Source: Calditrichales bacterium MX18-03 (lineage in GTDB: Bacteria; Bacillota; Clostridia; Lutisporales; Lutisporaceae). From it: a stretch of 64,000 bases of DNA. A program made the position numbers and the translations under genes. A model generated the notes under the pieces. The model was not told the origin of the DNA. It saw only the letters and a list, made by a program, of their open reading frames with translations, and did no database searches. The stretch is from the NCBI GenBank assembly GCA_021083345.1, contig JAJGRE010000007.1, positions 186,001 to 250,000 of the forward strand, given 5' to 3'. Shown here in pieces: positions 22,292-39,195 of the stretch (position 1 is its first letter; each line of letters opens with the position of its first letter).

Positions 22292-22425
22292 AAACGTTTA
22301 CGAAAGTGGTAATATAGTGTTAATGGGAGCCGCAACGGTTTTTGACAGAGTAAGGGCATCATTTTAATGCACATATAGGTTAATTATTTAGCAAGGAGTG
22401 AGTTTATGAACGCAAACGTTTACAA
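22292..22425 (+). promoter_or_regulatory. Control region of the transaldolase gene
   Basis: A promoter-like TTGACA (22342-22347) with 17-bp spacer and weak TAATGC (22365-22370) precedes the gene. The exact 10-mer AAACGTTTAC occurs twice, at 22292-22301 and at 22414-22423 just inside the coding start. Each contains the palindrome AAACGTTT. The second fits the catabolite-response (cre) consensus with one mismatch over 22410-22425. A LacI/CcpA-class repressor site is therefore plausible. Confidence 0.45.
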
Positions 22426-23491
22426 GAGTCCCCTGCACAAGACGGCCAGCACAACCGTCACGGAGGTATGGAATGATTCATGCTCCATCGAAGAATTGAA
22501 ATATTCCATCGAAAACGGTGCGGTGGGCGCAACTACCAACCCGGTCATCGTGGCAGAGGTGCTCAAAAAGGAAATGAGCCTATGGAAAGGCCGCATTCTG
22601 GAGCTGATCAATGAGATGCCGGAAGCCACCGAGGACGAAATCGCCTGGAAGCTGATCGAAGAAATGGCAGTCAAGGGCTCAGAGCTTCTGATGCCGGTAT
22701 TTGAAAAGGAAAACGGCAGAAAAGGCCGGATCTCCATCCAGACCAATGCAAAGTACTACCGCAATGCAAAGCGGATGGCAGATCAGGCTGAGTACTTCAA
22801 TACACTGGCCCCCAACATGATGGTCAAAATGCCGGTTACAAAAGCCGGTGTGGAAGCAGTGGAAGAGTCCACTTACAGGGGCGTCAACATCAATGCGACG
22901 GTTTGTTTCACAGTACCTCAGGCCGTGGCAGTAGCCGAAGCCGTGGAAAGAGGGCTTAAGCGCCGCGAAGCGGAAGGCCTGGATGTATCCTCCATGACGC
23001 CGGTATGCACCATTATGGTAGGCCGTCTGGATGACTGGATAAAGGTGATGGCAAACAAGAAGGGCGTCGTCATAGACCCTGGTTATCTGGAATGGTGCGG
23101 TGTGGCAGCTATGAAAAATGCCTATAGGATCTATCAGGAAAGAGGCTACAGGACACGCCTCCTTGCTGCAGCATACAGAAACCATATGCACTGGAGCGAG
23201 TTCATCGGCGGAAACATGGTTCTGACCATCCCCTGCGGCTGGCAGAAGAAATTCAATGCCTCTGACATTGAAGTCGTGCCCCGGATCGATAATCCGGTGG
23301 ATCCCAAGATCGTCGATGAGCTGCTCAGCAAGTTCGATGAATTCAGAAGGGCTTATCATGAAGACGGCATGACACCGGAGGAGTTTGATTCCTATGGTGC
23401 CACAGCCAGAACGCTGAGAGGCTTCATCAAGGGCTACGAAGAGCTTTTGGGCATGATCCGCGACCTGATGATCCCCAACCCCGATGCTTAA
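22406..23491 (+). CDS. Transaldolase family protein
   Basis: TIM-barrel aldolase of 361 residues, one of few plus-strand genes here. Family motifs are GATTNPVIVAEVL (about 36-48), MVKMPVTKAGVEAVEE (about 137-152, holding the strand with the Schiff-base-type lysine region), GVNINATVCFTVPQAVAVAEA (about 156-176) and GRLDDWIK. Transaldolases shuttle dihydroxyacetone units between sugar phosphates in the pentose phosphate pathway; this longer subgroup is less well characterised, so the true donor could differ. AAGGAG lies 7 nt before the ATG and a strong terminator follows. Confidence 0.88.
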   Translation: MNANVYKSPLHKTASTTVTEVWNDSCSIEELKYSIENGAVGATTNPVIVAEVLKKEMSLWKGRILELINEMPEATEDEIAWKLIEEMAVKGSELLMPVFEKENGRKGRISIQTNAKYYRNAKRMADQAEYFNTLAPNMMVKMPVTKAGVEAVEESTYRGVNINATVCFTVPQAVAVAEAVERGLKRREAEGLDVSSMTPVCTIMVGRLDDWIKVMANKKGVVIDPGYLEWCGVAAMKNAYRIYQERGYRTRLLAAAYRNHMHWSEFIGGNMVLTIPCGWQKKFNASDIEVVPRIDNPVDPKIVDELLSKFDEFRRAYHEDGMTPEEFDSYGATARTLRGFIKGYEELLGMIRDLMIPNPDA

Positions 23492-23562: not shown

Positions 23563-25095
23563 TCAATCCAGCTCGCCCACAGCTTTTTCTACAGCCCTCA
23601 GCAGCTTTCCTTCAGCAATCAGCTGAACTGCCATATCCGTATCCTGATACAGGACCCTGTCCTTTTCCATAAAGCTTACCGCTTCCCGCAAGGCCAGGTA
23701 TGCCTGCTTCGACCCTTTCCCCAGCTTTCCGCAGTCCTTCAGGTCTGCTGCCTGCGCGGCACACATCCATTCAATGCCAAGGACATATTGCACATGTCGG
23801 ATGATCTCCCTTGCCTTCCTAGCTGCAATTGTCCCCATGCTGACATGGTCCTCCTGGTTTGCGGAGGTGGGTATGGAGTCCACACTGGCCGGATGGGCCA
23901 GCACTTTGTTTTCCGATACCACAGCCGCAGCTGCGTACTGCGAAACCATGAACCCGCAGTTCAGGCCGCCTTTGGGTGCCAGGAACGCCGGCAGCCCGCT
24001 GAGCGCCGGATTGACCAGCCTCTCTATGCGCCTCTCCGACACATTGCCCAGCTCGGAGACCGCAATCCCCAGCGTATCCATGGCTATGGCAACGGGCTGT
24101 CCGTGGAAGTTCCCCCCCGAAAGTACGTCACCCTCTCCATCCGGAAATATCAGCGGGTTATCGGTTGCAGCGTTGATCTCCGTTTCGATCACTTCCCTGA
24201 CATAGTCGAAGGCCGGTCGGCTGGCACCGTGGATCTGCGGGATGCATCTCAACGTATAGGCATCCTGCACTCTTTTTTCTCCCTGCCGGGTGGTCAGGCC
24301 GCTTCCCTCACACAGCCTCAGCAGGTTCCGCGCCACAGCCGTCTGCCCTTTATGGGGTCTGGCCAGGTGGATCCGGGGATCAAAGGCGTCCACGATGCCC
24401 TCCAGTGCCTCCAGTGTCATGGCAGACACGATGTCGGCCGTCTTGATCAGCGTTGCGGCATCGAATACTGCAAGAGCTGCCACACCCATCATGGCACAGG
24501 TGCCGTTGATCAGTGCCAGCCCTTCTTTCGCCTTCAGGACAATCGGCGGGATGCCGGCTTCTTTCATGGCAGCTTCTCCGCTCATCAGACGACCCGCAAA
24601 CGCCGCTTCCCCTTCCCCCATCATGACAAGCACCATATGGGCAAGGGGGCAAAGGTCTCCGCTGGAGCCCACGGAGCCTTTCTCACGAATGATGGGATGT
24701 ACCCCTTTATTCAGCATATCGATCAACGTTTGCACCGTTTCCAGCCTTATACCCGAAAAACCCTTGGCCAGCGCATTGATGCGCAGCAGCATGATGGCAC
24801 GCACCACTTCCGTATCAAAGGGCCTCCCGATTCCCACTGCATCGGCATAAATCAGATTCCGCTGCAGTTCTTCTATCTCATCCTTGGAAATCGCCACATC
24901 ACTGAACTTGCCGAAGCCGGTATTGATGCCGTAGATGATCCTGCCCTCTTCTATCATTTTCTCCAGCAGTCTCCTGGATTTTCCGATATTGCATTTTCCT
25001 GTCTCGGACAACTGAACAACTGCCCCGCTTCGAGCCACTTCAGCCACATTGTCGATGGTCAAGCTGTTGCCGTCTATTTCAATTATTTTCTTCAT
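23563..25095 (-). CDS. hutH: Histidine ammonia-lyase
   Basis: First enzyme of histidine degradation, eliminating ammonia to give urocanate; 510 residues, as usual. The family's MIO electrophile is normally formed from Ala-Ser-Gly in GSVGASGDLAPLAH. Here the motif reads GSVGSSGDLCPLAH, confirmed at 24655-24700, so the first MIO residue is Ser. The rest of the active-site framework is intact, including GTCAMMG, QDAYTLRC.PQ and the NQEDHVSMG region. It is the last gene of hutU-hutI-hutH. Start 25095 with GGGGGTG upstream lies 13 bp after hutI. Confidence 0.94.
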   Translation of the reverse strand: MKKIIEIDGNSLTIDNVAEVARSGAVVQLSETGKCNIGKSRRLLEKMIEEGRIIYGINTGFGKFSDVAISKDEIEELQRNLIYADAVGIGRPFDTEVVRAIMLLRINALAKGFSGIRLETVQTLIDMLNKGVHPIIREKGSVGSSGDLCPLAHMVLVMMGEGEAAFAGRLMSGEAAMKEAGIPPIVLKAKEGLALINGTCAMMGVAALAVFDAATLIKTADIVSAMTLEALEGIVDAFDPRIHLARPHKGQTAVARNLLRLCEGSGLTTRQGEKRVQDAYTLRCIPQIHGASRPAFDYVREVIETEINAATDNPLIFPDGEGDVLSGGNFHGQPVAIAMDTLGIAVSELGNVSERRIERLVNPALSGLPAFLAPKGGLNCGFMVSQYAAAAVVSENKVLAHPASVDSIPTSANQEDHVSMGTIAARKAREIIRHVQYVLGIEWMCAAQAADLKDCGKLGKGSKQAYLALREAVSFMEKDRVLYQDTDMAVQLIAEGKLLRAVEKAVGELD

Positions 25096-25108
25096 TCCTG
25101 CACCCCCT

Positions 25109-26410
25109 TCAGCGGCTGCTTTGCTCTGCAAGCCTTCCATTTTCCACAACCACCCTGCCTCTTTTTATGACAATGTCCACGATATTGCCTCCCAGCCTAT
25201 AGACCACCTCTTCGTAAACCGGCGTATCCCATATCTGAATATCCGCCAACTTGCCAGCCTCCAAAGACCCCCGGTCATGGTCCAGGCCCAGTGCGGCAGC
25301 CCCCCCGCTTGTCGCCGCCTTCAGGGACTCTGCCGGCGTCATACGATGTCTTCTGCAAGCCAGCATCATGACAAACTGCATGGATTCCGTCCAGTTGCCG
25401 GGGTTGCAGTTGGTCGCCAAAGCAATCGTCATACCCGACTCCAGCATGGGCTTCGGATTGAAGGGCTTGGGGTGGTTAACGGAAAAATCCGTACCGGGGA
25501 GCAGGACGCCCGGAACCTTTGCCTCGGCCAGCTTCTTCATAACACTTGCCGGTGTATAGTTCAGGTGGTCAGCAGACACCATCCGCAGATCCGCAGCCAG
25601 ATCAGATCCTCCTATATAGGAATAGGCGTCGGTATGGATCTTCGGTTCCATTCCAGCAGCTCTGGCAGCCAGCAATATTTTTTCTGATTCCGCAGCGGTA
25701 TAATACCCTTCGTCGCACCAGACATCGCAGAACTTTGCCAGCTTCAGCCGGCCTACCTCCGGTATCATTTCCTGAAGCAGCAGGGACAGGTACTTCTGCT
25801 TGGGCATTTCCGAAGGCCAGCCATGGGCACCCAAAAATGTCGGTACGACATCCACGGGCAGCACCTGGTCCAATCTCTTGCTGACTCGAAGCTGCTTTAG
25901 CTCATTCTCAAGATCGAGGCCGTAGCCGCTCTTGCTTTCCACCGTTGTCGTACCGCAGCACAGCATGCGCTTCAGCTTTCGGGCAGATGCTTCAAAAATG
26001 GTCTCTTCCGATTCCGCTCTTGTCATTTCCACTGTCGCGGGCAGCCCGGTCTTGATGCCCATTTCCCTGATGGTCTCAGGATTATCCACAGTCAGCCTGG
26101 CCACATATTCCCGCACTCTGGAGCCGCCGAAGACCAGATGGGTATGGCTGTCTACAAATCCCGGAACCACCGTCTTTCCGCAGGCATCCAAAACGACAGC
26201 TCTGCTGCAGTCAACAGCCTCCAGCACTTCTGCCTGTGTCCCGACCGCCTCGATCCTTTCTCCTTTAACCGCCAGCCATCCGTTTTCTATCAAACCCGGC
26301 GGGTCCTTTGTATCCGCCTTGCAGGTTATCAACTGTGCTGCATTCCGGATCACCATATCTGCCGCAGCTTTTTCCTTTACAGCGCTTAATGAATTGCCTC
26401 CCTTGCTCAT
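25109..26410 (-). CDS. hutI: Imidazolonepropionase
   Basis: Opens the ring of 4-imidazolone-5-propionate to N-formimino-glutamate, third step of the pathway. A metal-dependent amidohydrolase of about 433 residues with VVPGFVDSHTHLVFGGSR, the ESKSGYGLDLENELK loop, the DVWCDEGYYTAAE strand and the late TDFSVNHP / ATNCNPG metal-site region. The start overlaps the hutU stop as ATGA. No glutamate formimidoyltransferase or formiminoglutamase gene is in the window, so the last step is encoded elsewhere. Confidence 0.95.
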   Translation of the reverse strand: MSKGGNSLSAVKEKAAADMVIRNAAQLITCKADTKDPPGLIENGWLAVKGERIEAVGTQAEVLEAVDCSRAVVLDACGKTVVPGFVDSHTHLVFGGSRVREYVARLTVDNPETIREMGIKTGLPATVEMTRAESEETIFEASARKLKRMLCCGTTTVESKSGYGLDLENELKQLRVSKRLDQVLPVDVVPTFLGAHGWPSEMPKQKYLSLLLQEMIPEVGRLKLAKFCDVWCDEGYYTAAESEKILLAARAAGMEPKIHTDAYSYIGGSDLAADLRMVSADHLNYTPASVMKKLAEAKVPGVLLPGTDFSVNHPKPFNPKPMLESGMTIALATNCNPGNWTESMQFVMMLACRRHRMTPAESLKAATSGGAAALGLDHDRGSLEAGKLADIQIWDTPVYEEVVYRLGGNIVDIVIKRGRVVVENGRLAEQSSR

Positions 26411-28116
26411 CGTGGTGCTTTTCCATCCGGTCCGAAGGTAGCTACCGGCGTCCACCACAGCGGCACCTTGATCTGTTCGTCGGTCAGCTTCCCTTCTCCG
26501 TTGGCCACTTCCTTTGCCGTCTCATAACCTGCCTGGGCGTGACGGACGACACCGATACCGGAGTCCACCGTCAGGCACACATTAAGCCTGAAATCCGCTT
26601 CATCTGTCCCGTCGGCAATCATCGTCACACCGGTATGAACCGCTTCTCCCATGGAATAATTGGCCTGGATGGCAATGAGATCGCACATCCCTGCACAGTT
26701 CAGCAGGCCATTGAGGTAGGGCCAGTCGGAGATCAGGTCTCCGCCGTCCTTCATATTCTCCGACTCAAAGGTGGGGTTGACGATGGAGCCCGAATCCAGG
26801 TTGTCTCTGGAGAAGGCCACCGGACCCTTCAGTTCTCCTTTTTTTATCAGTTCATTGACTGCCAGCCCGAATTTCCGCCTTTGCCCGAAGCCCATGTAGC
26901 AAACCCTTGCCGGCAGCGCTTCGATGGGAAGATGCCTGCGGGCCAGGTTGATCCATCTTTCCACCAGCGGATCTCCCTTGCAGATCTCCAGAGCCAGGTC
27001 ATCTGTCCGCTTCAGGTCTTCCGGCTCTCCCGACAGGCAAGTCCACCGGAACGGTCCCCTGCCTTCGCAGAACAGCGGCCTGATATACGCCGATACGAAG
27101 CCCGGTATCTGCAAGGCTTCCTCTCTCGGCATTCCGGCATCCATGCACTCTTTCCGGATGCTCGTTCCATACTCGAAGGCTTCAGCGCCTTTCTTTGAGA
27201 ATGCGATCATAGCCCGCAGCTGCTTTTTCATCGTCTCTCTCGCATCATGCAGGTATGCTTTTCTGTCCTTTGCCCTGTATACATCCGCCTGTTCCCCGGT
27301 ATAGCCTGACGGTATATATGAAATGGGATCATGGCAGGGGCACATTTCACTGACGATATCCGGCATGAAGCCTTTATCATGGGCTTCCCAGAACACCTCT
27401 GCCGCATTTCCCACAATGGCCACTGACAGAGGCGTCTTGTCGGCTGCAGCCTTTTCCGCCAGCAAGCGGGCTTCATCGAAGGAGTACACGATCTGATCCA
27501 TGTAGCCCTTTTCCATACGCCTTCTGATCACTCTTTCATCCGCATCCACAACGACAGCTACACCCCCATGCATCTTCATGGCCCAGCTCTGGTTGCCGCC
27601 CATTCCGCCAGCACCAGCTGTCAGGTAGATCCTGCCTGCAAGACTATTGTTGAACCGTTTTAAGGCGATAGCCGACAGGGTTTCGAAGGTTCCTTGTATG
27701 ACGCCCTGTGTGCCGATGTATTCCCAGGGGGCTGCCGTGTATTGGGCGAACATGGTCAGGTTCTTGTCCTGAAGCTCATAGAACTTCTCCCAAGTCGCCT
27801 TCATGATGTTGGTCGTAGCCATGACGACCCTGGGGGCAAGCTTATGGGTCTTGAAAATGGCCACAGGCATCCCGGACTGTATGACCAGCGTCTCGTCATC
27901 CTCCAGTTCCTTCAGCGACTTCACGATGGCATGGTAAGACTCCCAGTTTCTTGCGCACTTTCCGTTTCCCCCATATATGACCAACAGCTCAGGAATCTCT
28001 GCATTCTCCATGTTGTTCTCCAGCATCCGCAGCAGCGATTCCTGCTTCCAGCCCTTGCAGCGCAGCGTCGGTCCTCTTTGTGCCCTGACTGAATAGAGTA
28101 TTTCCGGTCTTTCCAT
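26407..28116 (-). CDS. hutU: Urocanate hydratase
   Basis: Second step of histidine degradation, converting urocanate to imidazolone propionate with a tightly bound NAD as electrophile. The 569-residue chain shows LVIYGGNGKCARNWESY near the N-terminus, LTAGAGGMGGNQSWAMKMHGG (dinucleotide-binding loop, about 165-185) and the Cys-containing CFCEGRGPFRWTCLSGE-like region (here LFCEGRGPFRWTCLSGE, about 350-366). AAGGAGGATGG precedes the ATG. It is the promoter-proximal gene of the operon, behind a sigma-54 promoter. Confidence 0.95.
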   Translation of the reverse strand: MERPEILYSVRAQRGPTLRCKGWKQESLLRMLENNMENAEIPELLVIYGGNGKCARNWESYHAIVKSLKELEDDETLVIQSGMPVAIFKTHKLAPRVVMATTNIMKATWEKFYELQDKNLTMFAQYTAAPWEYIGTQGVIQGTFETLSAIALKRFNNSLAGRIYLTAGAGGMGGNQSWAMKMHGGVAVVVDADERVIRRRMEKGYMDQIVYSFDEARLLAEKAAADKTPLSVAIVGNAAEVFWEAHDKGFMPDIVSEMCPCHDPISYIPSGYTGEQADVYRAKDRKAYLHDARETMKKQLRAMIAFSKKGAEAFEYGTSIRKECMDAGMPREEALQIPGFVSAYIRPLFCEGRGPFRWTCLSGEPEDLKRTDDLALEICKGDPLVERWINLARRHLPIEALPARVCYMGFGQRRKFGLAVNELIKKGELKGPVAFSRDNLDSGSIVNPTFESENMKDGGDLISDWPYLNGLLNCAGMCDLIAIQANYSMGEAVHTGVTMIADGTDEADFRLNVCLTVDSGIGVVRHAQAGYETAKEVANGEGKLTDEQIKVPLWWTPVATFGPDGKAPR

Positions 28117-28165
28117 AATACCATCCTCCTTTTAATTGGCCGCATACCATTATGACTTCTTATTG

Positions 28166-28181
28166 AGCAAGGAGCATGCCA
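28166..28181 (-). promoter_or_regulatory. Sigma-54 promoter of the hut operon
   Basis: Minus strand reads TGGCATGCTCCTTGCT. The -24 GG (28179-28180) and -12 GC (28167-28168) dinucleotides have the required 10-bp separation and match the TGGCAC-N5-TTGC consensus with one change. Transcription should start near 28155, about 40 bp before hutU. Confidence 0.87.
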
Positions 28182-28253
28182 AATTGCTGCCGGAGGTGCT
28201 ATCCCCTGGGATTGTTGATTTTCCCCACAGGTAAAGCAGACATGGAAAAGACC

Positions 28254-28270
28254 TGTATAATTTTTATACA
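28254..28270. promoter_or_regulatory. Proximal activator-binding palindrome (UAS1)
   Basis: TGTATA-N5-TATACA, within a larger perfect dyad (28250-28274, 11-bp arms, 3-bp centre). Its centre is about 107 bp upstream of the predicted hut start, the usual distance for enhancer sites of sigma-54 activators. On the minus strand a TTTT follows, so it could double as the end of the activator transcript. Confidence 0.7.
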
Positions 28271-28317
28271 GGTCCTCCAAAATAATATTGCTTTTCAATG
28301 CAAAAACGCCTACAGTA

Positions 28318-28334
28318 TGTATAAATTCTATACA
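28318..28334. promoter_or_regulatory. Distal activator-binding palindrome (UAS2)
   Basis: Second TGTATA-N5-TATACA, abutting the stop codon of the activator gene. Centres of the two sites are 64 bp apart, close to six helical turns, which places them on the same face of the DNA. Confidence 0.7.
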
Positions 28335-30053
28335 CTATTCCCCTTTGCGGATGCTCAGCTTTTTCATTCGGTAGATCAGGCTCTGGCGGATGATTCCCAG
28401 GTCTCTTGCAGTTTCGGAGATATTCCAGCTGTTTCTGTCCAGGCTCTCCAGCACGACGCTTCTTTCTATTTCCCGCAGTATCTGTGAGAGGGATTCGGTG
28501 CTTGTCCTTGAGAAGTTTGCTGCCCTGGACCCAAGAAGCATCTCCTTGAGGTACTCCGGCAGGTCTCCGAGGCCTAAGCCCCTCCGGTTCTCCTCCGCCC
28601 GGATCATCAGGTTTTCTATGACATGCTCAAGCTCCCTGGTATTGCCGGGCCAATCATACATCAGCATCACTTCCTGCAGCTCCGGGGAGAGGACCTGGAT
28701 GGTCTTCCCCAGCAGCTTGTTGTATTTCCGGATAAAGAAGGCTGCAAGGTCCAGTATATCCCTTTTCCGCTCCCGCAACGGTGCGATGAACAAGCACAGG
28801 CCGGCAATACGATAGAAAAGGTCCTGCCTCAGACCGCCGCTTTTTATCAGTTTTCTCGGTTCTTCATTCATGGCACAGATGACTCTGCAGCGCACAGGCA
28901 GCGTTTTGACACCGCCTACACGTCGGACCTTTTTCTCCTGCAGCACGCGCAAAAGTTTCGTCTGCATGGATACCGGCATGGAGTTCAGCTCGTCCAGGAA
29001 CAAAGTGCCCGCCCCGGCTTCTTCAAACAACCCCACATGGTCTGCCGCACCTGTATAGGCTCCCTTCACGGCGCCGAAAAGGATGCTTTCCAAAAGGTTC
29101 TCCGGTATGGCTGCACAGTTTACGGCCACAAAGGGCTCCGTCTTCTTCCTGCTGAAATTGTGCATGCTCTGGGCAAATACCTCTTTGCCGGTCCCCGTCT
29201 CCCCGACGATCAGGACATTGTTCTCCAGCATCGCCATGGTCTGCGCTTCCCGGATGAGGCTCAGCGTTGCTTCGCTGTTGCCGACGATGTCCGAAAAAGT
29301 GTACACCGTACCGTTGGCGGTCTCCTCTGTTTTTATATAATCAGGCTCCTCCCGTGCGAAAAGCCGTTTCTGCTCGATGGTCTCAGCCAGCTGGGACTGC
29401 AGCCTGTTTTCATTCCTGCTGATGGAATAGACGCCGATTTTTTCTCCGTCCTTTATAATGGGATAGGTACTGTAGGAAATATATTTGGGTATGCCGTCCT
29501 TATACGCATGCGCCTTGTAAAGGTTGACCTTCGCCTGCCCGCTCTTGTATACCTCCCGGTGCTCCGACTGGTCCTCCGAGTCGTAATGATAAACATCCCA
29601 CAGGTATTTTCCCATGATATCCCGTGCCTTCATGGCTTCCAGCTTTTCCTGCGCCTTATTATACAGCACCACCTTTCCCCGGTAGTCGCTCATGATGATT
29701 CCATCGCTGATGGATTCCATGATCTTCTCTAAGCAATACAGCTTGATATCCTTGTTCTTGCAGTCCTGCAGGGAGGTCATCAATACCAAGTTATAAGATC
29801 CATTCACATCCTCAATGGGATGGTCTTCCAGGCTATAGCTGTCTCCGGATGCCGTCCTGTATACCTTTCCCGGTGCGGGACTTGTCTCCATGCCGTCCTC
29901 CAGAACCTGATGGAAGTTTTTGTTGACCCATTCCGTTCCGTTAAGCCGCTTCTCTATATAATCATTGACCCATAGGATTGTAGCCTGCCTGTCCAAGAGG
30001 ATGACACCTGAAGCAAATTTCGAAAGCAACTGTCCGATCTGAATCATGTCCAT
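28335..30053 (-). CDS. Sigma-54-dependent transcriptional activator of the hut operon
   Basis: Enhancer-binding protein of 572 residues. Two PAS-like sensory regions (about 1-100 and 105-220) precede a AAA+ domain (about 250-480) with Walker A VGETGTGKE, the sigma-54-contacting loop KGAYTGA (GAFTGA variant), Walker B LFLDELNSM and R-finger region. A Fis-type helix-turn-helix closes the protein (about 535-572, SETARDLGIIRQSLIYRMKK). It has no receiver domain, so a ligand or protein sensed by the PAS region probably controls it. The adjacent sigma-54 promoter and paired palindromes make hutU-hutI-hutH the likely target. The ATG follows AAGGGG. Confidence 0.92.
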   Translation of the reverse strand: MDMIQIGQLLSKFASGVILLDRQATILWVNDYIEKRLNGTEWVNKNFHQVLEDGMETSPAPGKVYRTASGDSYSLEDHPIEDVNGSYNLVLMTSLQDCKNKDIKLYCLEKIMESISDGIIMSDYRGKVVLYNKAQEKLEAMKARDIMGKYLWDVYHYDSEDQSEHREVYKSGQAKVNLYKAHAYKDGIPKYISYSTYPIIKDGEKIGVYSISRNENRLQSQLAETIEQKRLFAREEPDYIKTEETANGTVYTFSDIVGNSEATLSLIREAQTMAMLENNVLIVGETGTGKEVFAQSMHNFSRKKTEPFVAVNCAAIPENLLESILFGAVKGAYTGAADHVGLFEEAGAGTLFLDELNSMPVSMQTKLLRVLQEKKVRRVGGVKTLPVRCRVICAMNEEPRKLIKSGGLRQDLFYRIAGLCLFIAPLRERKRDILDLAAFFIRKYNKLLGKTIQVLSPELQEVMLMYDWPGNTRELEHVIENLMIRAEENRRGLGLGDLPEYLKEMLLGSRAANFSRTSTESLSQILREIERSVVLESLDRNSWNISETARDLGIIRQSLIYRMKKLSIRKGE

Positions 30054-30143: not shown

Positions 30144-31532
30144 TTACTCCCCGGTTACCTGGCATGCAAAAGCATACTCGCAGCTTGCGAATGATACCTT
30201 GTCGTTGTTCCTGATCTCATAATCGATGTTGCTCTTGATCCGCTCTCCGTTTAACCTGGTTCCGTTTTTTGAGTTCAAATCCCTGACATAATATCTGCCT
30301 TCGCGGCTGATCAGCTCCGCATGGAGCTTCCCTACAGTCCCGTTTTGCAGGACATGATCTGCATGGCCTTTCAGCCTGCCTACCAGAAGCGTGGGTTTGC
30401 ATAGGATGATCGGATCGGCAGAACCGTCCTGCGTGCTCTTCAGACAAGCGATTGCGTTGCTGCCTTTACTGCGGTCCAATAGAACCGTGTCACTGCGGTT
30501 ATGTACCTCAAAGTATTCCGTCACATCCGGTTTTTCTGCTGCTTGCATTTGCTGCTGCCGCTCCGGCTTCTTCCCAGCCTTTCGCTGTGCATCATCTTTC
30601 TTGGATACCTTGATGTGCTTTTCCTGCTTTCCGTGATCTTTGGCGGCGGTATTGCCTTTGCCGGACAAGAGCTTGCTCATGAATAGTAAGTCCATTGCCC
30701 CTACGATGATAGCCCAGCCGCCCAATGTAGACACCTTGTCCGCTGCAGTCAGACCGCCGGATAATTGTGCGAGCAGACTGATCATAACCAGTGCAAGCAC
30801 CTGCACCAAAGCGGCAGCCAGAACAACTTTCCTGTTCCTGTTTTTATCTGTGGGTCTCTTCACTTCCGCCTGTGGGCTGACCATCGGTTCGAGCGGTACA
30901 TTTTTATGCTTTTCCTGTCCCGCAGCCGCTTCCTGCTTTACCGGCTGCTCCGGCGTACCGGACCAATCCTGCAGCAATTTGTCGAAGGCTGCTATTGAAA
31001 AATCCTCCTGCCTTAGCTGGCTCAGCAGGTTATGTATCAAGCCGCTGCAGGCGTTTCCGTCAAAGCTTACGGCGTTCATAAGCAGGTCACAGACGAAGGC
31101 TTTGAAGCTGTCATTCACGTCCTCTCTGACGATCATAGGGATATAGGCGAGGGAAATCTCCATGGTGCCTGGATTTACAAAGATATACCGCTCATCCAGC
31201 ACAAAGCTGTTTTCATTGAGAAAATAGTTGCAGCTTTCATCAACCACCCGAATGATCCCTCTCAGCAATCCCGCAAACTCCAACTCACTCAGCTTCCTGC
31301 GGCATAAAAAATGCTGCAAGGACACCTTTGATGTAATCCTATAGTAGAGATTGAGCGTATCGTTGATATGCCTGGCCTCCAAGGGCAGAATCCCGGGATC
31401 GGGATTATTGGCGATCATTTCAGTCTGATAGTAAAGCAGCGCTTCCGCACCCTGCATGCGGATTACCAGGTAGCTTGCTCCGGCACCATTTTCATAGTCA
31501 AAGCAAAACCTGTCCCCATTCTTATGGAACAT
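30144..31532 (-). CDS. DUF6382-FHA protein of the Tad pilus locus
   Basis: 462-residue membrane protein. The N-terminal half (about 1-185) resembles DUF6382. Two hydrophobic segments follow (about 235-258 and 265-290) and a C-terminal forkhead-associated domain (about 365-460) with LVGRLKGH, LHAELISREGRYYVRDLNSKNGTRLNGERI. The usual Ser-Arg of the phosphothreonine site is Gly-Lys here (VGKLHAE), so phosphopeptide binding may be altered. It is the last gene of the pilus cluster. FHA proteins often couple secretion systems to Ser/Thr kinases; no kinase is in the window. Confidence 0.82.
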   Translation of the reverse strand: MFHKNGDRFCFDYENGAGASYLVIRMQGAEALLYYQTEMIANNPDPGILPLEARHINDTLNLYYRITSKVSLQHFLCRRKLSELEFAGLLRGIIRVVDESCNYFLNENSFVLDERYIFVNPGTMEISLAYIPMIVREDVNDSFKAFVCDLLMNAVSFDGNACSGLIHNLLSQLRQEDFSIAAFDKLLQDWSGTPEQPVKQEAAAGQEKHKNVPLEPMVSPQAEVKRPTDKNRNRKVVLAAALVQVLALVMISLLAQLSGGLTAADKVSTLGGWAIIVGAMDLLFMSKLLSGKGNTAAKDHGKQEKHIKVSKKDDAQRKAGKKPERQQQMQAAEKPDVTEYFEVHNRSDTVLLDRSKGSNAIACLKSTQDGSADPIILCKPTLLVGRLKGHADHVLQNGTVGKLHAELISREGRYYVRDLNSKNGTRLNGERIKSNIDYEIRNNDKVSFASCEYAFACQVTGE

Positions 31533-31553
31533 CCAATCCCTCCTTTACAATGC

Positions 31554-32492
31554 TTAATCCTGCTGCCTGGGCGGTTTGCAAACCTTGCAGGGCGTGTACC
31601 CCAGCTCTGCCTGGGATAGCGGCATCGGAATCTTGCTGGCATACAGATACCTGCAGCTTCCTACATGATACCGTATCCCCGTCCTGGTTACATAGACGGT
31701 GGGAGAATGATCCTCCTCAAAAAGGCTCAACCCTTCTTCCCTTGCGGCCGCAGCTTCACAGCTGCCCTTGAGCCATGCCTTCTCCACCGCCGTATGCACC
31801 ATGGTTATATCCCGGTTGCCGAAAAAGGGCAGCGGCATGTCAAACCTGTATTCCACCTGGACGACCACATCGTCCTGTGAAATATCTCCTTCCTCAAAGC
31901 CAAACCGCCGGTACTGCTCTCGCCTCATCGTATATGCCTGCTCACTTTGCGGAAACTCCACCAGCGTGAACCGGATTCGTTGGGGATCCATCAGGCTGCT
32001 GCCGGCAAAGTCTTCCATTAGTGCCTTGGCGATGCGGTACTTGACATCGGATTTGTACGCCCAGTATTCATCCGTCGATCTGCTTGCAAGGGATCCCACA
32101 ACACCGCCCAGATAGTCGGCTGCAACCTTGTTGATCAGGGTCTTGATGTCATGCTGCTGCATACTTCCCGTCAACAAGTCCGCTAAAGCACCTTCCGGCT
32201 GCCCGATCCCGGCATACTCCGGCAGCTTACCGGCCTCTTCCATTATCGAAGGGATTTGCCCAACGCCATACTGCTCGATAATACCTTCCTCCAGTGCGTT
32301 GAGGTATTTGACCGGATACGCTGCCGCAGCAATTTGCTTTGCCGTTTCGTTGACTGCATGGTCCAAGGTCAGGCTTATACAAGCAAACCGGACACAAAAA
32401 AGCAGAACGAAGAAAAAGCAAAGGAATACCGGAAAGGCAATACAGGCTTCCACCGTCAGGGACCCTCTGTTCTTATGTCTGTGCTTTGACAT
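31554..32492 (-). CDS. TadE-like pseudopilin with C-terminal Cys/His module
   Basis: 312-residue protein beginning GSLTVEACIAFPVFLCFFFV, a TadE-type N-terminus with the conserved Glu and one membrane segment (about 10-35). A periplasmic/extracellular region follows. The last about 45 residues (VYVTRTGIRYHVGSCRYLYASKI ... YTPCKVCKPP) form a small His/Cys module seen at the end of unrelated clostridial secreted proteins, with His-x4-Cys and CxxC, suggesting metal binding. TadE/TadF proteins are minor pilins processed by the prepilin peptidase. ATG follows AAGGAG. Confidence 0.78.
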   Translation of the reverse strand: MSKHRHKNRGSLTVEACIAFPVFLCFFFVLLFCVRFACISLTLDHAVNETAKQIAAAAYPVKYLNALEEGIIEQYGVGQIPSIMEEAGKLPEYAGIGQPEGALADLLTGSMQQHDIKTLINKVAADYLGGVVGSLASRSTDEYWAYKSDVKYRIAKALMEDFAGSSLMDPQRIRFTLVEFPQSEQAYTMRREQYRRFGFEEGDISQDDVVVQVEYRFDMPLPFFGNRDITMVHTAVEKAWLKGSCEAAAAREEGLSLFEEDHSPTVYVTRTGIRYHVGSCRYLYASKIPMPLSQAELGYTPCKVCKPPRQQD

Positions 32493-32503
32493 CCAAAAAC
32501 TCC

Positions 32504-34546
32504 TTAGTATCCTATATAGACTTCCTTTTCAACCACATACCGGTTCCCCTGAAAACCCTCGAAGCCCAGCTTATCCAGACTGAGCACAGGCAGGAACCAC
32601 AAGTTCACCGGCACCGAGACACTGGCTCTTACAGCGGTTTGGTACCGGCCCAGCTTGAAATCCTCCCGGCTGCCTTCCGGTCCCACATCCGCACCCATTT
32701 TTATATTGACCTGCATCAGCTGCTGGATTCGCCGCAGGGTGACCTCCTCATCCTGCATCAGGAGCAGGAAACGCAAATGGTCGGAGTATTGCAGCCTGAT
32801 CCCCGGACAGCCGGGAGAAATGCTGACCGCTTCTCCCGCCAGCATCGCCAACATATCGCTGCAGGCCTGTATGCTTCCCTCCGCCAGTGCCCATGCCAGT
32901 CTGGCAAAGGGGTCCGGAATGCCGTTGGCAGCAAAGCTGTCGATGGCATCAATGGCAAACCGCAGAAACCATACCTGGGCCATCACCTCTTTGACGACCG
33001 CGGCCTGACTGTTTTTGGGCATATCGTAAGGAATATCCGAACCGCTCAATATATACTCCACTTCGCCCTTCTTAAAATGCCGGGTTCTCTCCGTCTTTGA
33101 CGTTATAAAAGTAAACCGGTCCATGACGTATTCGGTCAAATAAAGCTTATCCCGCATATTCAAAGAGGTATCCTCCAGAAACTGCAGCAGCTGCCTCATA
33201 TATGAAATTGCATTGTCATAGCTCTTCTCAGACTGGGCCGCTCCGGAACGGTCATGCACCGATATTGCCGACTGCATCAGCTTTTCCATATCGCCATCGG
33301 ACTCATCCCTCACGTCAGCCAGCTCCCTAGCCGTTAAAAGCCATGCAGCAGGAATGTACCTCCCTAGGGCTTCCAGCTTTGTCCGGACCTCCTCCGTTTT
33401 GTTTTCGTAGCCCTGCTTTTGTTCCTGCTGCTTTTCCGAGTGCGCTTTGCCGTTTGTCTTGACGTCCTCTCCGGCTTCAACCTCCTCCAGCCGGATATCG
33501 GCCAGTGTCCTGTCCAGCGCCTCCAGCCTATCGTCGATCTCCTGCTCCAACTGCTCGATCTGCTGCCGCAAAGAGTCGATTTGCTCCGCATCCTCCCCGG
33601 TCTGCTCCTGCCGTGCAAGCAAGCCGCCCAATTCACTTTGCTGCCTGTCTATCCGATCCCTCAGCGATGAGACTTCTTCCGCTGTCGGGGCTGCTATGCG
33701 CATGTACTTTTGGATTGCTGCCCCGGCTTTCTCTCCGCCTGCCTCAACTTGGTCGTACCGGATGCTTTCATTGGCCTGCATGCCGGCCTCTCCATTCCGG
33801 AGATTGTCCGCAGGATCTTTCTCCTGCAGAAAATCCACTGACTGCTGCCTGGCAGCCGCATAGGCAGCATGAGCCTCGATGCATTGCGGCAATTTATCCG
33901 CAATCGCATCCTCCAACCCCTCCATCAGCACCTGCAGCTTCCTTTCCGTCAGCGATTCCGCATTTTTCCGGATACTTCTGATCCTGCCGTTCAACGCTTC
34001 CAGCTTTTCTTCCAGCGCCAATGCCTTTCCTCTGACGGCTTTCTCCTTTTCGGCAAAGGCCATTTTCTGCCCCAACTTGGCTTTCTTAAAGCCGGCGATG
34101 ACATCCCCGTCAAAGCTGTCCGCAGCATTTTCAACCATTACGGCCGGTGCCTTGTACTTCATATACTGCAGGATCTGCTGTCTCAATATACTTTCATCGG
34201 TCAGGCTCCCCAGGCCTTCAGCCTCCATCCTGCACCCCTGCAGGTCATAACGGATGAAGCGGATGCCCTGGTGCCTTTCCGTCAAATTCAGCTGGAAGTA
34301 CCGCATCAACCGCTGCTTGAGCACCTCCGGACCGCCTCTGGTATCCAGGCCGAATATGCCGAATTCGCCACAGAGCGTCCCATCATAGTCTGCCAACACC
34401 GACCTTACGGATGTGGAAAGGGCGCTTTCCACTTTTCTCTCGGCTGCCTGTATCCGGGCAATATCGATCAGCGAGCCGGCAAAAGTCAGCACAGCCATAA
34501 AGGTCACTGCCAAAAACACCGTTATTCCGCCTTTATTGTTCCACAT
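32504..34546 (-). CDS. DUF5702 protein of the Tad pilus locus
   Basis: 680-residue protein with an N-terminal TadE/TadG-like membrane anchor (GGITVFLAVTFMAVLTFAGSLIDIARI) and a long external region. Residues about 180-400 contain two heptad-rich stretches (LEEKLEALNGRIRSIRKN; LRQQIEQLEQEIDDRLEAL) predicted as coiled coil. The family accompanies clostridial Tad clusters in the place of TadG and may be a surface-exposed minor pilin or tether. The precise role is not established. Confidence 0.8.
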   Translation of the reverse strand: MWNNKGGITVFLAVTFMAVLTFAGSLIDIARIQAAERKVESALSTSVRSVLADYDGTLCGEFGIFGLDTRGGPEVLKQRLMRYFQLNLTERHQGIRFIRYDLQGCRMEAEGLGSLTDESILRQQILQYMKYKAPAVMVENAADSFDGDVIAGFKKAKLGQKMAFAEKEKAVRGKALALEEKLEALNGRIRSIRKNAESLTERKLQVLMEGLEDAIADKLPQCIEAHAAYAAARQQSVDFLQEKDPADNLRNGEAGMQANESIRYDQVEAGGEKAGAAIQKYMRIAAPTAEEVSSLRDRIDRQQSELGGLLARQEQTGEDAEQIDSLRQQIEQLEQEIDDRLEALDRTLADIRLEEVEAGEDVKTNGKAHSEKQQEQKQGYENKTEEVRTKLEALGRYIPAAWLLTARELADVRDESDGDMEKLMQSAISVHDRSGAAQSEKSYDNAISYMRQLLQFLEDTSLNMRDKLYLTEYVMDRFTFITSKTERTRHFKKGEVEYILSGSDIPYDMPKNSQAAVVKEVMAQVWFLRFAIDAIDSFAANGIPDPFARLAWALAEGSIQACSDMLAMLAGEAVSISPGCPGIRLQYSDHLRFLLLMQDEEVTLRRIQQLMQVNIKMGADVGPEGSREDFKLGRYQTAVRASVSVPVNLWFLPVLSLDKLGFEGFQGNRYVVEKEVYIGY

Positions 34547-34567
34547 CCGGCCGCCTCCCCTGAAGCA

Positions 34568-35266
34568 TCACTCTTTCGCAGCTTCATGCCTTATTCTGTC
34601 CAGCATACTGTCCAGCTTGCCGGCAAGTCTCGCTCCGTATTCCGCCGACAAGTCCACGTTCCTTATATATTCTGCAGGTTCTGCCAGAACTGCCGTCCCG
34701 GCAGCCGTCATCGTCAGGGTCTTTTTGCCGTCGAAAACCGCCTTCAGGTAACCGAAAGGGATTCTTACTTCCTGAATGATAGTGACCTGAATCCGGCTTG
34801 ACATGAAGCCTTTATGGCAGACGATTTGAAAATCGGTTTTTTCCGGCTTCAGGATGCAGCGACCCAGCCGGTTAAGCAAAGCATACCGGATCCGGTTCAT
34901 TTTCCTTTCGGCTCCTTCATTCTCACTGAAAGCAGCTGCGGCTGATCTCAGTACTTCATCCAGTTCCTCCGTTATGTTGATGGACTCACTCACTTTCTTC
35001 TCAGACATGTCCAGACCCTCGTACAATGCCTCACTGCCTCCTCCGGCAGAGCTGCTGCCCGCAGCCCACAGCTCTGCTCCCTTTTGAGCGCAGTATCCAG
35101 CTGCAGCCGACAGCATCGCTCTCTGCGACAGGTAGAGGAAAGAGCCGGAAAGGGCAAAAAGAACAAACAGCACCGTTGTCACCGTCAGGCAGGCTTCTAC
35201 CGTATAGCTGCCTTTCCTGTCCGATGCCAGCTTGTGGAGGACCTTTAACCTACCGTCTTTCTTCAT
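34568..35266 (-). CDS. TadE/TadF-like pseudopilin
   Basis: 232-residue protein with the N-terminus KGSYTVEACLTVTTVLFVLFALSGSF: a basic leader, TVEA with the conserved Glu and one membrane helix. The rest is a soluble extracytoplasmic domain rich in Ala and Ser without known motif. Start overlaps the flp stop as ATGA, so pilin and pseudopilin are translationally coupled. Confidence 0.75.
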   Translation of the reverse strand: MKKDGRLKVLHKLASDRKGSYTVEACLTVTTVLFVLFALSGSFLYLSQRAMLSAAAGYCAQKGAELWAAGSSSAGGGSEALYEGLDMSEKKVSESINITEELDEVLRSAAAAFSENEGAERKMNRIRYALLNRLGRCILKPEKTDFQIVCHKGFMSSRIQVTIIQEVRIPFGYLKAVFDGKKTLTMTAAGTAVLAEPAEYIRNVDLSAEYGARLAGKLDSMLDRIRHEAAKE

Positions 35267-35457
35267 TGATCCAGGTTGGTAAAGGAGTCATCCAGCTTGT
35301 CGTTGCCGAAAACCGTATTGAGGGAACTGGTCACAAAATCAAAGATTTTCTGCCTGAAAATCAAGGCGATCCCCAGCAGCACTGCAATGATCACCACGAT
35401 CTCCACTGTTCCCAGTCCGTCCTCTTCCTGAATAAAGCTTTTCAACATTTCTCTCAT
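35263..35457 (-). CDS. Flp-type type IVb major pilin
   Basis: 64-residue prepilin. A short acidic leader ends in EEDG, followed by LGTVEIVVIIAVLLGIALIF: prepilin peptidase should cut after Gly to leave Leu+1 and the conserved Glu+5. The hydrophobic helix is about 20 residues and the C-terminus is short and polar (LNTVFGN), as in Flp1 pilins. The third ATG (35457) is taken as start, with AGGAG 9 nt upstream; two adjacent ATG triplets lie closer to the site. Confidence 0.88.
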   Translation of the reverse strand: MREMLKSFIQEEDGLGTVEIVVIIAVLLGIALIFRQKIFDFVTSSLNTVFGNDKLDDSFTNLDQ

Positions 35458-35488
35458 GCACATCATCTCCTTTCAAACTTCTAGGCTG

Positions 35489-37024
35489 CTAAAAACCCTT
35501 CATGGATAATACTGCCGGCGCCGTCACGATCATCAGGATGGCCACAAGCATCAGCATCAGAGGCAGGAGCAGCTTCGTCGAGGCTTCCTCACCCAACCGC
35601 TTTGCTGCGTTTTTCCGCATTTCCCAGCACTCGACGGATTGGAGCCGCAGTATCGCAACGGTTTCTTCGCTGCCCTTTCGCAGATTCTGGAGCAGCACCG
35701 ACACAAACTTGGCCACCTCGGGTACCTTGCACCTGCCAGCGAAGGCTTCATACGCCTGGTGCTCCGGCTTGCCGCCCCTGATGTCGCTTAAGGCGGCAGC
35801 CAGTTCCCGATAGAAGGGACTGTCCTTGCCGCTCTCCCCTTGGATCCTGTCCATGGCCCTGCCTGCTGTCATACCGGCCCCCATCAGCAGCACCAGCTTG
35901 TTCAGAAAATCAGGAAAATCATATTGAATCTGCCTTCTCCGTTTTTCTGCCTTATCATGGATGCCGCGGTCCAGAAGATAGGCAATGAGACCAGCCGTAA
36001 AAAAGGCGAAGAACAAAGTCCCCAGTCCGCTGTCCTCCTTCGGCCGCATGTCTGGCAGCCATGTAATGATAACCCCCTCATAGCTGCTGGTAGTGGGCAG
36101 AAGGATCCTGTCATCCCGTATCACATCATCAGCACCGCTGCTTTTGCCCCTGCTTATTTCCTTCAAGCTGCTTCCCAGTTCTTCCAGCACCTTTGACAGG
36201 ATACGGCCTTCGCTTATGGTTGGCTTGCATACCGTCACTTCAAACCTTTTTTCTTTCATAACCGCACCCTTCTTTGCAGTGGCAGTCAGCATGACCACCG
36301 CCTTCATGTCATGCGCTTCGGGTACAGTCACTGCGCCGTCTGCTGCCACCACCTGCGTATTGCTGCTCCTCCATTCAAAATGGACTTCCAGGTTTTCCAG
36401 TGCCTTATAGGTTTTGTTCAGCTGCAGCCGGCTGCTTACAGCATCGAGGCTTCTATTGCTTCCTTTTATCATATCTCCGGTCAGCCTTTCCAAAGCCTTT
36501 ATTACCGCGTCACTGTCACTGGGCGGGGCTGCCTCCGGAATGCTTATAGCATACAGCTGCTGCCTCGACTGCTCACCTTTTTTTACATCAGCCTTCAGAT
36601 AGACCTCCCTGCTGCCTCCACCAAAGGCCGGCCTCACCAGCTCCCTTCCGCCGATCAGGTGCGTCTCTTGGGCACTGCCGCGGCTCACCGTCTCTTGAAC
36701 CCACATCATGCTTCCGAAAAAAGACAAAATCAGAAGGATTAGAAGCACATGGCACACCTTTGCTGCCCAGTGAAGCCTCAGTCCGGAGTCGGCATTTTTG
36801 GCGCCGTATAGCTCACCGAACTGCCGATGAAGCTTCAAGTCATACCGCGTACGATAACGGTACCGGATCAGATCCATGAACGCCGACCCGACAGGCAGCA
36901 GACAGGAATGCAGACCCTTTGCAGCGGTGCGTTGGTCGTCCATCCCGCTGCAAAGGCCCTTGCTCCTTATAAAAAGAAAAACAGTAAATACAAGCAGACC
37001 CGCAAAAAAGATGATGCATATCAT
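35489..37024 (-). CDS. TadC-like pilus platform protein with Ig-like insert
   Basis: 511 residues, against about 300 for ordinary TadC. Hydrophobic segments lie at about 3-18, 71-89, 333-351 and 487-508. The type II secretion F domain is at about 375-500 (NKLVLLMGAGMTAGRAM, FVSVLLQNLRKGSEETVAILR). Between membrane segments two and three, an extracytoplasmic region holds an atrophied bacterial Ig-like domain (about 215-275): FEWRSSNTQVVAADGAVTVP and VVMLTATAKKGAVMKEKRFEVTV. The F domain anchors the assembly ATPase; the Ig-like part is an unusual addition. Confidence 0.82.
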   Translation of the reverse strand: MICIIFFAGLLVFTVFLFIRSKGLCSGMDDQRTAAKGLHSCLLPVGSAFMDLIRYRYRTRYDLKLHRQFGELYGAKNADSGLRLHWAAKVCHVLLILLILSFFGSMMWVQETVSRGSAQETHLIGGRELVRPAFGGGSREVYLKADVKKGEQSRQQLYAISIPEAAPPSDSDAVIKALERLTGDMIKGSNRSLDAVSSRLQLNKTYKALENLEVHFEWRSSNTQVVAADGAVTVPEAHDMKAVVMLTATAKKGAVMKEKRFEVTVCKPTISEGRILSKVLEELGSSLKEISRGKSSGADDVIRDDRILLPTTSSYEGVIITWLPDMRPKEDSGLGTLFFAFFTAGLIAYLLDRGIHDKAEKRRRQIQYDFPDFLNKLVLLMGAGMTAGRAMDRIQGESGKDSPFYRELAAALSDIRGGKPEHQAYEAFAGRCKVPEVAKFVSVLLQNLRKGSEETVAILRLQSVECWEMRKNAAKRLGEEASTKLLLPLMLMLVAILMIVTAPAVLSMKGF

Positions 37025-37027
37025 ACG

Positions 37028-37930
37028 CTACACCTCTATGTCCATGATTTTCTTTGAAATGACGTAAGCAGCGGCCAGGAGCAGGATGGCAAGGGTCATG
37101 ATGATGTTGCCCTGAATGGTTGAAAAAACCGGCTGCATGAAATCGCCGGCACTTGCGGATATAAAAATAATCATCAGGATGGGCATGACATTCAGCACCT
37201 TCTGCTCAAACCGTCTCTCCGCCAGTAGGGCATCGATCTCCTGCCTGATTTCCATTTTGTCCCTCAAGATATCCGTCGAATTCTTCACCACCTGCACCAG
37301 GTTCCCGCCGCTCCGTTTGCTTACCTGAAGCACATCGGCAAAGCTGCGGATGTCTTCCAGATGCGACCGGTCTGCAAAATCCTTCAGTGCCGCTTCAATA
37401 GTCTCGTTCATTTCCAGCTTTCTGGCGATGTATTCCAACTCCCTGAGCAAATCGGTACCGGCATCCGGATACTGTACGGCCATGTCGCACGAAGCCTCCT
37501 TGAAGGCTGCTTCAATGGATTTTCCTGCGGTCAGGGAGGAGGATAAGGAATACAGCATCTCCTTGAACTGAATGCCCAGCTCCTGTTTACGCTTCCTGAT
37601 CATTTCCTTCACCCTGTATTTGGGGTATAACAGTGCTGCAGGTGCTGCCATCAGTGAAATCACAGGATTCCTGTAAAAGATCATGCCCGCAGCAAAAATT
37701 GCCGCAGATGCAGCAGCAATACATGAGAGCCTTTCTCTCCGCGTCATCCGATAGGTGTTATAATCGGGCGGCCTGCCAGCTGCACTTTCCGTCGCTGCAC
37801 CTCCCTTCCCCGGTTTTACGCCTATTCTCTTTTCTCCCGCTCCGAAGCCGATCCCCTTTAAGAGCACGGCAAGAATCAGCGCTACCAATACTACCGCTGC
37901 CATCAGCAGCCCAATAACCACCTTCTCCAT
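37028..37930 (-). CDS. TadB-like pilus platform protein
   Basis: 300-residue inner-membrane protein with an N-terminal membrane segment (about 5-25), a paired segment at about 78-105 and a C-terminal one near 275-295. The central type II secretion F domain (about 120-250) includes FKEMLYSLSSSLTAGKSIEAAF and FADVLQVSKRSGGNLVQVV. TadB and TadC form the membrane platform on which CpaF drives pilin polymerisation. It ends 3 bp before the tadC start. Confidence 0.88.
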   Translation of the reverse strand: MEKVVIGLLMAAVVLVALILAVLLKGIGFGAGEKRIGVKPGKGGAATESAAGRPPDYNTYRMTRRERLSCIAAASAAIFAAGMIFYRNPVISLMAAPAALLYPKYRVKEMIRKRKQELGIQFKEMLYSLSSSLTAGKSIEAAFKEASCDMAVQYPDAGTDLLRELEYIARKLEMNETIEAALKDFADRSHLEDIRSFADVLQVSKRSGGNLVQVVKNSTDILRDKMEIRQEIDALLAERRFEQKVLNVMPILMIIFISASAGDFMQPVFSTIQGNIIMTLAILLLAAAYVISKKIMDIEV

Positions 37931-37943
37931 GATGCATCACCCC

Positions 37944-39182
37944 TCACACCTCTGCAGGTATCCCTGCCAGCTTGAATTTGCCTGTATTCTGCATAACTTT
38001 TTCCGTTCTTTTGAGGCAGCCGGTTACACCTCCATCTACAGTTTCACACGCCTCCTCGAAGCTGTAGAGGGTATTTACCTGGATCTGGCCTTGGCAGCAA
38101 TCCAGCACCTCGGTGATTTCCATGACCCTTCTGCTCTTGTCCCGGAGCCGGGACAGGTGGATGATGATATCGATGGCGGATGCGATCTGCTGCCGTATGG
38201 CTTCCAGGGGAAGGGGCACGGCGCAGAGCACCATGGTCTCCAACCGGCCCAGCATGTCCCGGGTTGAATTGGCATGGCCGGTGGAGAGGGATCCGTCGTG
38301 CCCCGTGTTCATGGCCTGCAGCATATCCAGGGCTTCCGCCCCCCTGACCTCACCAACCACGATCCGCTCCGGCCTCATTCTCAGCGAGGTTTTTATCAGG
38401 TCCCTGATGGTCACCTCCCCTTTCCCCTCGGTATTGGCATTCCGCGTTTCCAGCCTTACGATGTTTTCTATTCCCACAATCTGCAGCTCTGCCGAATCTT
38501 CGATGGTAATGATGCGTTCATCCTTTGGTATGAAGTTGGAAAGCATATTCAGAAAGGTCGTCTTGCCCGATCCTGTCCCGCCGCAGATAAACAGGTTGTA
38601 TTTGGCTTTCACCAGCCTTTCCAGAAAGCCGGCAGCCTCCTTTGTCAGTGATCCCCATGCCACCAGGTCCCCTATGGTGATAGGCTTGTCCGGAAACTTC
38701 CGGATGGTGAGGATGGGTCCGTTCAAGGCAATGGGCGGAAGCACGGCATTGACGCGGGAGCCGTCCTTGAGCCTGGCATCCACAATGGGGGTCGATTCGT
38801 TTACAATCCGGTTCACCCTGGCTACGATGGACTGGATGACATCCTCCAGACGCCTTTGGCTATCGAAGTAAACATCCGCCTTGAGGCATTTCCCGTTCCG
38901 CTCTACAAAAACATCCCGAAGGCCGTTTACCATGATTTCCGTGATGCTTTCATCGTCAATCAAAGGCTGAAGCACATCCATCCGCCTGACGGCATTAAAC
39001 ACCGTCCGGATGAGCTCCTGCTTTTCCCTGATGCTCAGGAACTGCTGTCTGGACTTTTCAAAAACGATTCCCGTCAGCAGCTCTTCCACTGCCTCATCCG
39101 AAGCATCCTTGTCCATATCCATGCCATCCCTTAAGGCTTGCTTGATCTCATTGATGAGGCTTGTTTTCATCTCTTCGTTCAC
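37944..39182 (-). CDS. CpaF/TadA secretion ATPase
   Basis: 412-residue type II/IV secretion ATPase powering Flp pilus assembly. The Walker A motif CGGTGSGKTTFLNML is at about 196-210, the aspartate box IITIEDSAELQI follows, then Walker B-like MRPERIVVGEVRGAEALDM and the His box TGHDGSLSTGHANS. The N-terminal region (1-60) is the helical bundle typical of CpaF. All catalytic residues are intact, in contrast to the neighbouring TadZ. Confidence 0.94.
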   Translation of the reverse strand: MNEEMKTSLINEIKQALRDGMDMDKDASDEAVEELLTGIVFEKSRQQFLSIREKQELIRTVFNAVRRMDVLQPLIDDESITEIMVNGLRDVFVERNGKCLKADVYFDSQRRLEDVIQSIVARVNRIVNESTPIVDARLKDGSRVNAVLPPIALNGPILTIRKFPDKPITIGDLVAWGSLTKEAAGFLERLVKAKYNLFICGGTGSGKTTFLNMLSNFIPKDERIITIEDSAELQIVGIENIVRLETRNANTEGKGEVTIRDLIKTSLRMRPERIVVGEVRGAEALDMLQAMNTGHDGSLSTGHANSTRDMLGRLETMVLCAVPLPLEAIRQQIASAIDIIIHLSRLRDKSRRVMEITEVLDCCQGQIQVNTLYSFEEACETVDGGVTGCLKRTEKVMQNTGKFKLAGIPAEV

Positions 39183-39195
39183 TGAGTCCCCTCCC

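Follow-up and report, generated by a model that had tools for sequence, protein, structure and literature searches.

A predicted one-component sigma-54 activator with paired upstream sites for hutU-hutI-hutH in a member of the Bacillota

Sequence comparison makes it very likely that, in this bacterium, hutUIH is turned on by a one-component sigma-54 activator that binds a pair of UAS. In the window (the whole 64-kb stretch of DNA analyzed), the minus strand carries, in order, the activator gene (30053-28335), two dyads, a sigma-54 promoter, hutU (28116-26407), hutI and hutH. The activator gene and hutU are co-oriented, and the interval between them is 218 bp. A preliminary description of this DNA had called the arrangement a complete hut switch. 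The mechanism that it named, an adjacent activator acting through paired dyads and a sigma-54 promoter, stands, with a layout that is conserved in relatives; the word "complete" goes too far, since we infer both the signal and the binding of the activator to DNA.

Results

The hut genes and their surroundings

Three minus-strand genes encode urocanate hydratase (hutU, 26407-28116; TIGR01228, 632 bits against a cut-off of 375), imidazolonepropionase (hutI, listed ORF 25109-26458; TIGR01224, 370 bits, cut-off 298) and histidine ammonia-lyase (hutH, listed ORF 23563-25149; TIGR01225, 690 bits, cut-off 539). The true start of hutI is probably an internal ATG near the end of hutU, and that of hutH is probably the ATG near 25095. 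A transaldolase-like gene (22406-23491; PF00923), which scores well under the curated transaldolase cut-offs, is convergent with hutH. Directly upstream of the activator gene, a run of genes at 30144-40302 resembles a Tad-type pilus cluster, with an FHA/DUF6382 protein, TadE-like proteins, TadB/TadC-like proteins, a CpaF-type ATPase and a CpaE-like protein.

Most work on the control of hut genes in the Bacillota concerns HutP of Bacillus. HutP (PF09021) is absent from this genome, as judged by a search that detects the B. subtilis control, and HutP antitermination was thus ruled out.

Two perfect dyads precede a sigma-54 promoter

The interval between the activator gene and hutU contains two putative UAS dyads on the minus strand. 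The distal dyad (28318-28334; TGTATAAATTCTATACA, minus-strand reading TGTATAGAATTTATACA) abuts the activator stop codon (28335). The proximal dyad (28254-28270; TGTATAATTTTTATACA, minus-strand reading TGTATAAAAATTATACA) is enclosed by an extended inverted repeat of 25 bp, to which no strand is assigned (28250-28274; GACCTGTATAATTTTTATACAGGTC). Each matches TGTATA-N5-TATACA with 0 mismatches and their centres are 64 bp apart, exactly as had been reported for two palindromes of the same pattern; both read TGT-N11-ACA, which places them in the TGT-N10-12-ACA class of UAS. A possible degenerate third site (28299-28314, minus strand; TGTAGGCGTTTTTGCA), found by anchored alignment and weak, lies about 20 bp inside the distal dyad. 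The two dyads are the only perfect copies of TGTATA-N5-TATACA in the 4,686,761 bp of the genome, and 3000 dinucleotide shuffles of the 290-bp region produced no perfect dyad and no pair at 64-66 bp. The loose motif is not enriched in general, because a genome scan allowing up to 2 mismatches gave 295 forward matches versus 297 for the reversed-pattern control.

A predicted -24/-12 promoter of the GG-N10-GC form (TTGGCATGCTCCTTGCT) lies at 28182-28166 on the minus strand, at the distance of about 82 bp from the dyads that had been described beforehand. Its GG is 82 bp from the centre of the proximal dyad and 146 bp from that of the distal one. TTGGCATGCTCCTTGCT shows no mismatch to the published clostridial sigma-54 consensus TTGGCATNNNNNTTGCT (PMC6615313). 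Strict TTGGCAYN5TTGCW sites number 21 in the genome versus 0 for the reversed control, so only about 0.0005 such sites are expected on this strand of the 218-bp interval. One copy of rpoN is present in the genome, and with the -24/-12 promoter this marks the operon as a predicted member of a sigma-54 regulon. Transcription of hutU is predicted to start at about 28155, with a leader of about 39 nt. No sigma-A-type promoter was found in 28000-28450.

The adjacent gene encodes a sigma-54 activator

The proposed hut activator (28335-30053, minus strand; 572 aa) has a PAS(-PAS)-AAA+-Fis-HTH architecture. The earlier identification of a sigma-54 activator with a GAYTGA loop and PAS domains was upheld by Pfam (Sigma54_activat, PF00158, 1.2e-61; PAS, 7.1e-10), by motifs and by Foldseek. 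The AAA+ domain carries GETGTGKE (Walker A) and the GAYTGA loop characteristic of sigma-54 enhancer-binding proteins, and the C terminus contains a Fis-type HTH (HTH_8, PF02954, 1.2e-9, residues 526-566). The closest solved structures by Foldseek are sigma-54 activators such as NtrC1, FleQ and DmpR. Two PAS-like regions can be recognized; the second of them and the AAA+ domain are well modelled structurally, the first PAS less well. A Pfam scan found no receiver domain, which sets the protein apart from response regulators of the CbrB/NtrC type.

The best-scoring NCBIfam model is PrdR, and identity with PrdR was ruled out because the score of 342 bits is far under the equivalog cut-off of 795. 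The genome encodes six related activators at E<=1e-90, the hut activator among them. The nearest of its paralogs in the genome (L066, G000:C10:296-3350), 40-43% identical, sits after a gene of 396 aa that has its own strict sigma-54 promoter, TTGGCACAAGAATTGCT.

Activator orthologs are linked to hut genes

Orthologs of the activator occur in 14 genomes, Bacilli included, with hut genes in the neighbourhood in all 14. The 13 genomes beyond this one are two of the same family (G004 and G014), two Acidaminobacter, Scopulibacillus, two Viridibacillus, three of family f46, and G679, G439 and G477. Two types of urocanase occur at these loci, the 570-aa form of the window and one of about 675 aa that is only about 30% identical to it, and the activator gene precedes, follows or diverges from the hut genes. 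Because both urocanase type and gene order differ, inherited gene order alone does not account for the linkage. In a tree of 13 hut-linked activators, 12 form one clade (support 99/97); the thirteenth (L078) joins just beyond it, as does one unlinked paralog. Few genomes of the class, 6 of 391, have an ortholog at that similarity, and hutH itself was found in 39 of 291. At 57 other hutH loci of the class and phylum, 1.5-kb flanks contained no activator or -24/-12 site upstream of hutH; this span is too short to reach even the activator of the window, which lies 3 kb from hutH, and the result was given no weight.

The dyads accompany one recognition helix

The preliminary description had suggested scanning relatives for TGTATA-N5-TATACA beside hutU. 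Five of the orthologous activators, a small sample that includes two close relatives, carry the recognition helix LGIIRQSLIY, and all seven of their target promoters have the dyad. Clear pairs are present at five of the seven, spaced 64 bp in the window, 65 bp in G004, 66 and 65 bp at two promoters of Acidaminobacter hydrogenoformans and 66 bp in Acidaminobacter MAG4. The hutU-1 promoter of MAG4 has one near-perfect dyad with a degenerate partner at 66 bp, and the G014 target has a single perfect copy. Shuffling all seven regions (3000 times each) gave no pair at 64-66 bp. The -24/-12 promoter lies 82-172 bp inside the inner site in each region, the distance being 239 bp in G014. Between the sites, conservation is confined to a weak third element that lies inward of the outer site by about 20 bp; in Acidaminobacter this element is TGTAAAATATTTTACA-like and has the same offset as 28299-28314 in the window. 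The G004 dyads are about 830 bp past the activator gene, from which a gene on the opposite strand separates them, yet they adjoin the hut promoter; therefore, the dyads belong with the promoter and not with the 3' end of the activator gene.

No perfect dyad was found at the loci of orthologs with other recognition helices. The Bacilli, in which the helix differs, have other repeats upstream of the hutU sigma-54 promoter: GCAAAATTTATCTGC occurs twice, 87 bp apart, in both Viridibacillus, and GCAAATATAATTTGC in Scopulibacillus. These repeats are suggestive only.

An unbiased scan of the 391 genomes of the class for the dyad pair returned this genome, G004 and G042 only. In G042 (L081, contig C7), three TGTATA-N5-TATACA dyads adjoin a different activator, 34% identical, that has its own sigma-54 promoter, and the pair was therefore not counted as a site of the hut activator. 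This locus shows that the TGTATA half-site is common to different sigma-54 activators and that the dyad alone cannot name the protein. Another perfect dyad, TGTATAATCTTTATACA, is found in Acidaminobacter (L059:3675-3691 and L060:3789-3805) immediately upstream of a helicase-like gene, which itself lies before the activator gene. This dyad overlaps a TATAAT-like sequence, no -24/-12 site was found beside it, and it is a possible site of autoregulation.

The second PAS domain is the likelier sensor

The first PAS region is absent from 5 of the 13 aligned hut-linked activators; therefore, the second PAS is the likelier sensor. Its residues E164 and H165 are invariant across all 13, and at this place the paralogs examined have other residues, typically TSTL, in an alignment read by eye. 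When the PAS domain sequence was compared with solved structures, the only matches were general PAS ones (WalK), which gave no clue to a ligand. From the gene context, the signal is probably histidine, urocanate or a related sign of histidine surplus.

A second hut cluster and the origin of the operon

A second, different hut cluster is located on contig C8 of the same genome (672000-691000; L068) and contains a 675-aa urocanase (about 31% identical), hutI, a formiminotransferase-like gene and a cyclodeaminase-like gene. Its 19 kb contained no sigma-54 site and, even with one mismatch allowed, no dyad. The cluster in the window is without genes for processing formiminoglutamate, so the two clusters may be complementary. 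None of 21 other genomes of the family has the hutU type of the window (their best match is about 33% identical), yet this hutU is 85% identical to hutU of Acidaminobacter, which suggests that the hut operon may have been acquired by horizontal transfer. The activator is only 56-58% identical to its orthologs in both groups.

Discussion

In the proposed mechanism, dimers of the activator would bind the two 17-bp dyads through the Fis-type HTH. Six turns apart, the dyads would share one face of the DNA, and an AAA+ ring assembled there could loop to the promoter, where its GAYTGA loops would remodel the closed complex that sigma-54 RNA polymerase forms at TTGGCATGCTCCTTGCT. The outcome would be transcription of hutU-hutI-hutH, presumably as one regulated unit, induced by a compound of the histidine pathway.

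Other readings of the interval deserve consideration. The proximal dyad may only resemble an operator and serve chiefly to end the activator mRNA as an intrinsic terminator, or to attenuate a read-through transcript as an RNA element. Read as minus-strand RNA, this dyad gives a stable hairpin (-17.5 kcal/mol, z -6.3) and then UUUU, 60-85 bp past the activator stop codon. However, the U tract is short, a terminator scan called none, the proximal repeat included, and the folding of the distal dyad does not exceed the chance level (z -1.2). The G004 pair, distant from its activator gene and separated from it by a gene on the opposite strand, and the conserved spacing of 64-66 bp likewise speak for sites on DNA, and we regard the RNA explanation as very unlikely. 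A second role of the proximal repeat, as a weak terminator of the activator mRNA, is possible; an Rfam search found no known RNA element near its gathering score. Still harder to credit is a chance -24/-12 match, with hutUIH transcribed either from a sigma-A promoter or as an extension of the activator transcript. Although the two genes are co-oriented and only 218 bp apart, a strict site is hardly to be expected by chance in the interval, sigma-54 sites occur at the same place in relatives, Bacilli included, and no sigma-A match was found in 28000-28450, so that this route is extremely improbable.

The dyads might also be targets of another regulator, such as a repressor or some other sigma-54 activator, with the adjacent activator working from different DNA. 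The genome has several related activators, each of them a conceivable binder of the dyads, and the pattern adjoins a different activator in G042. The Acidaminobacter dyad upstream of the helicase gene, with its TATAAT-like sequence and without a visible -24/-12 site, would fit a repressor or an autoregulatory site. Against this, across orthologs the dyad comes and goes with the recognition helix of this particular activator, and the inner sites have a position proper to enhancers, 82-172 bp upstream of the -24/-12 promoter. We therefore consider another regulator unlikely and favour binding of the adjacent activator to the paired dyads.

The preliminary description presented a dedicated sigma-54 hut switch as a distinct arrangement, and this novelty was overstated: Pseudomonas hutU, HiaR and the usual clostridial layout precede it. 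Pseudomonas hutU is sigma-54 dependent via CbrB and NtrC and has two palindromic NtrC subsites upstream (PMC8871633). It resembles the present case in these respects, but it relies on global two-component activators and the HutC repressor, whereas here the activator is dedicated, adjacent and one-component. HiaR is a clostridial sigma-54 activator predicted, with its own UAS, to control the histidine-breakdown gene hutH in hiaL-hyp-hutH (Nie et al. 2019, PMC6615313). Its target differs from the hutU-hutI-hutH found here, and by its published description the HiaR UAS is among the "distinct" motifs, in contrast to the TGT-N10-12-ACA class of the present dyads. In the Clostridiales, 39 activator groups have been reconstructed, most of them beside a single target, with several UAS, many of which are TGT-N10-12-ACA (PMC6615313). 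Activators of this class (PrdR, CrbR, AdhR and others, with UAS of the NifA/FhlA type; PMC6615313) share with the switch in the window a TGT-N11-ACA site, multiple UAS, a sigma-54 promoter and an adjacent single operon. The differences here are the hut target, the fixed pair at 64-66 bp and the extended half-sites TGTATA/TATACA. Given the precedents in Pseudomonas and the Clostridiales, the switch enlarges an already well-populated kind by a hut activator that has UAS of its own; it is very probably real, and a new example of a well-known type.

We found no description of this activator group in the open-access literature. Tentatively, the hut-linked activators may form an unnamed family across the Bacillota: one-component sigma-54 sensors dedicated to hut genes, in which the PAS with E164-H165 would bind histidine or urocanate directly, the enhancer would be a fixed pair of sites six turns apart, and the half-sites would co-evolve with the recognition helix. 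We find this broader proposal plausible, with the odds leaning somewhat against it in full.

The predicted switch would be a compact example, in the Bacillota, of histidine breakdown placed under a sigma-54 activator of its own. With matched changes in helix and DNA site and an invariant Glu-His in the PAS domain, both the DNA code and the signal of these activators would be directly testable.
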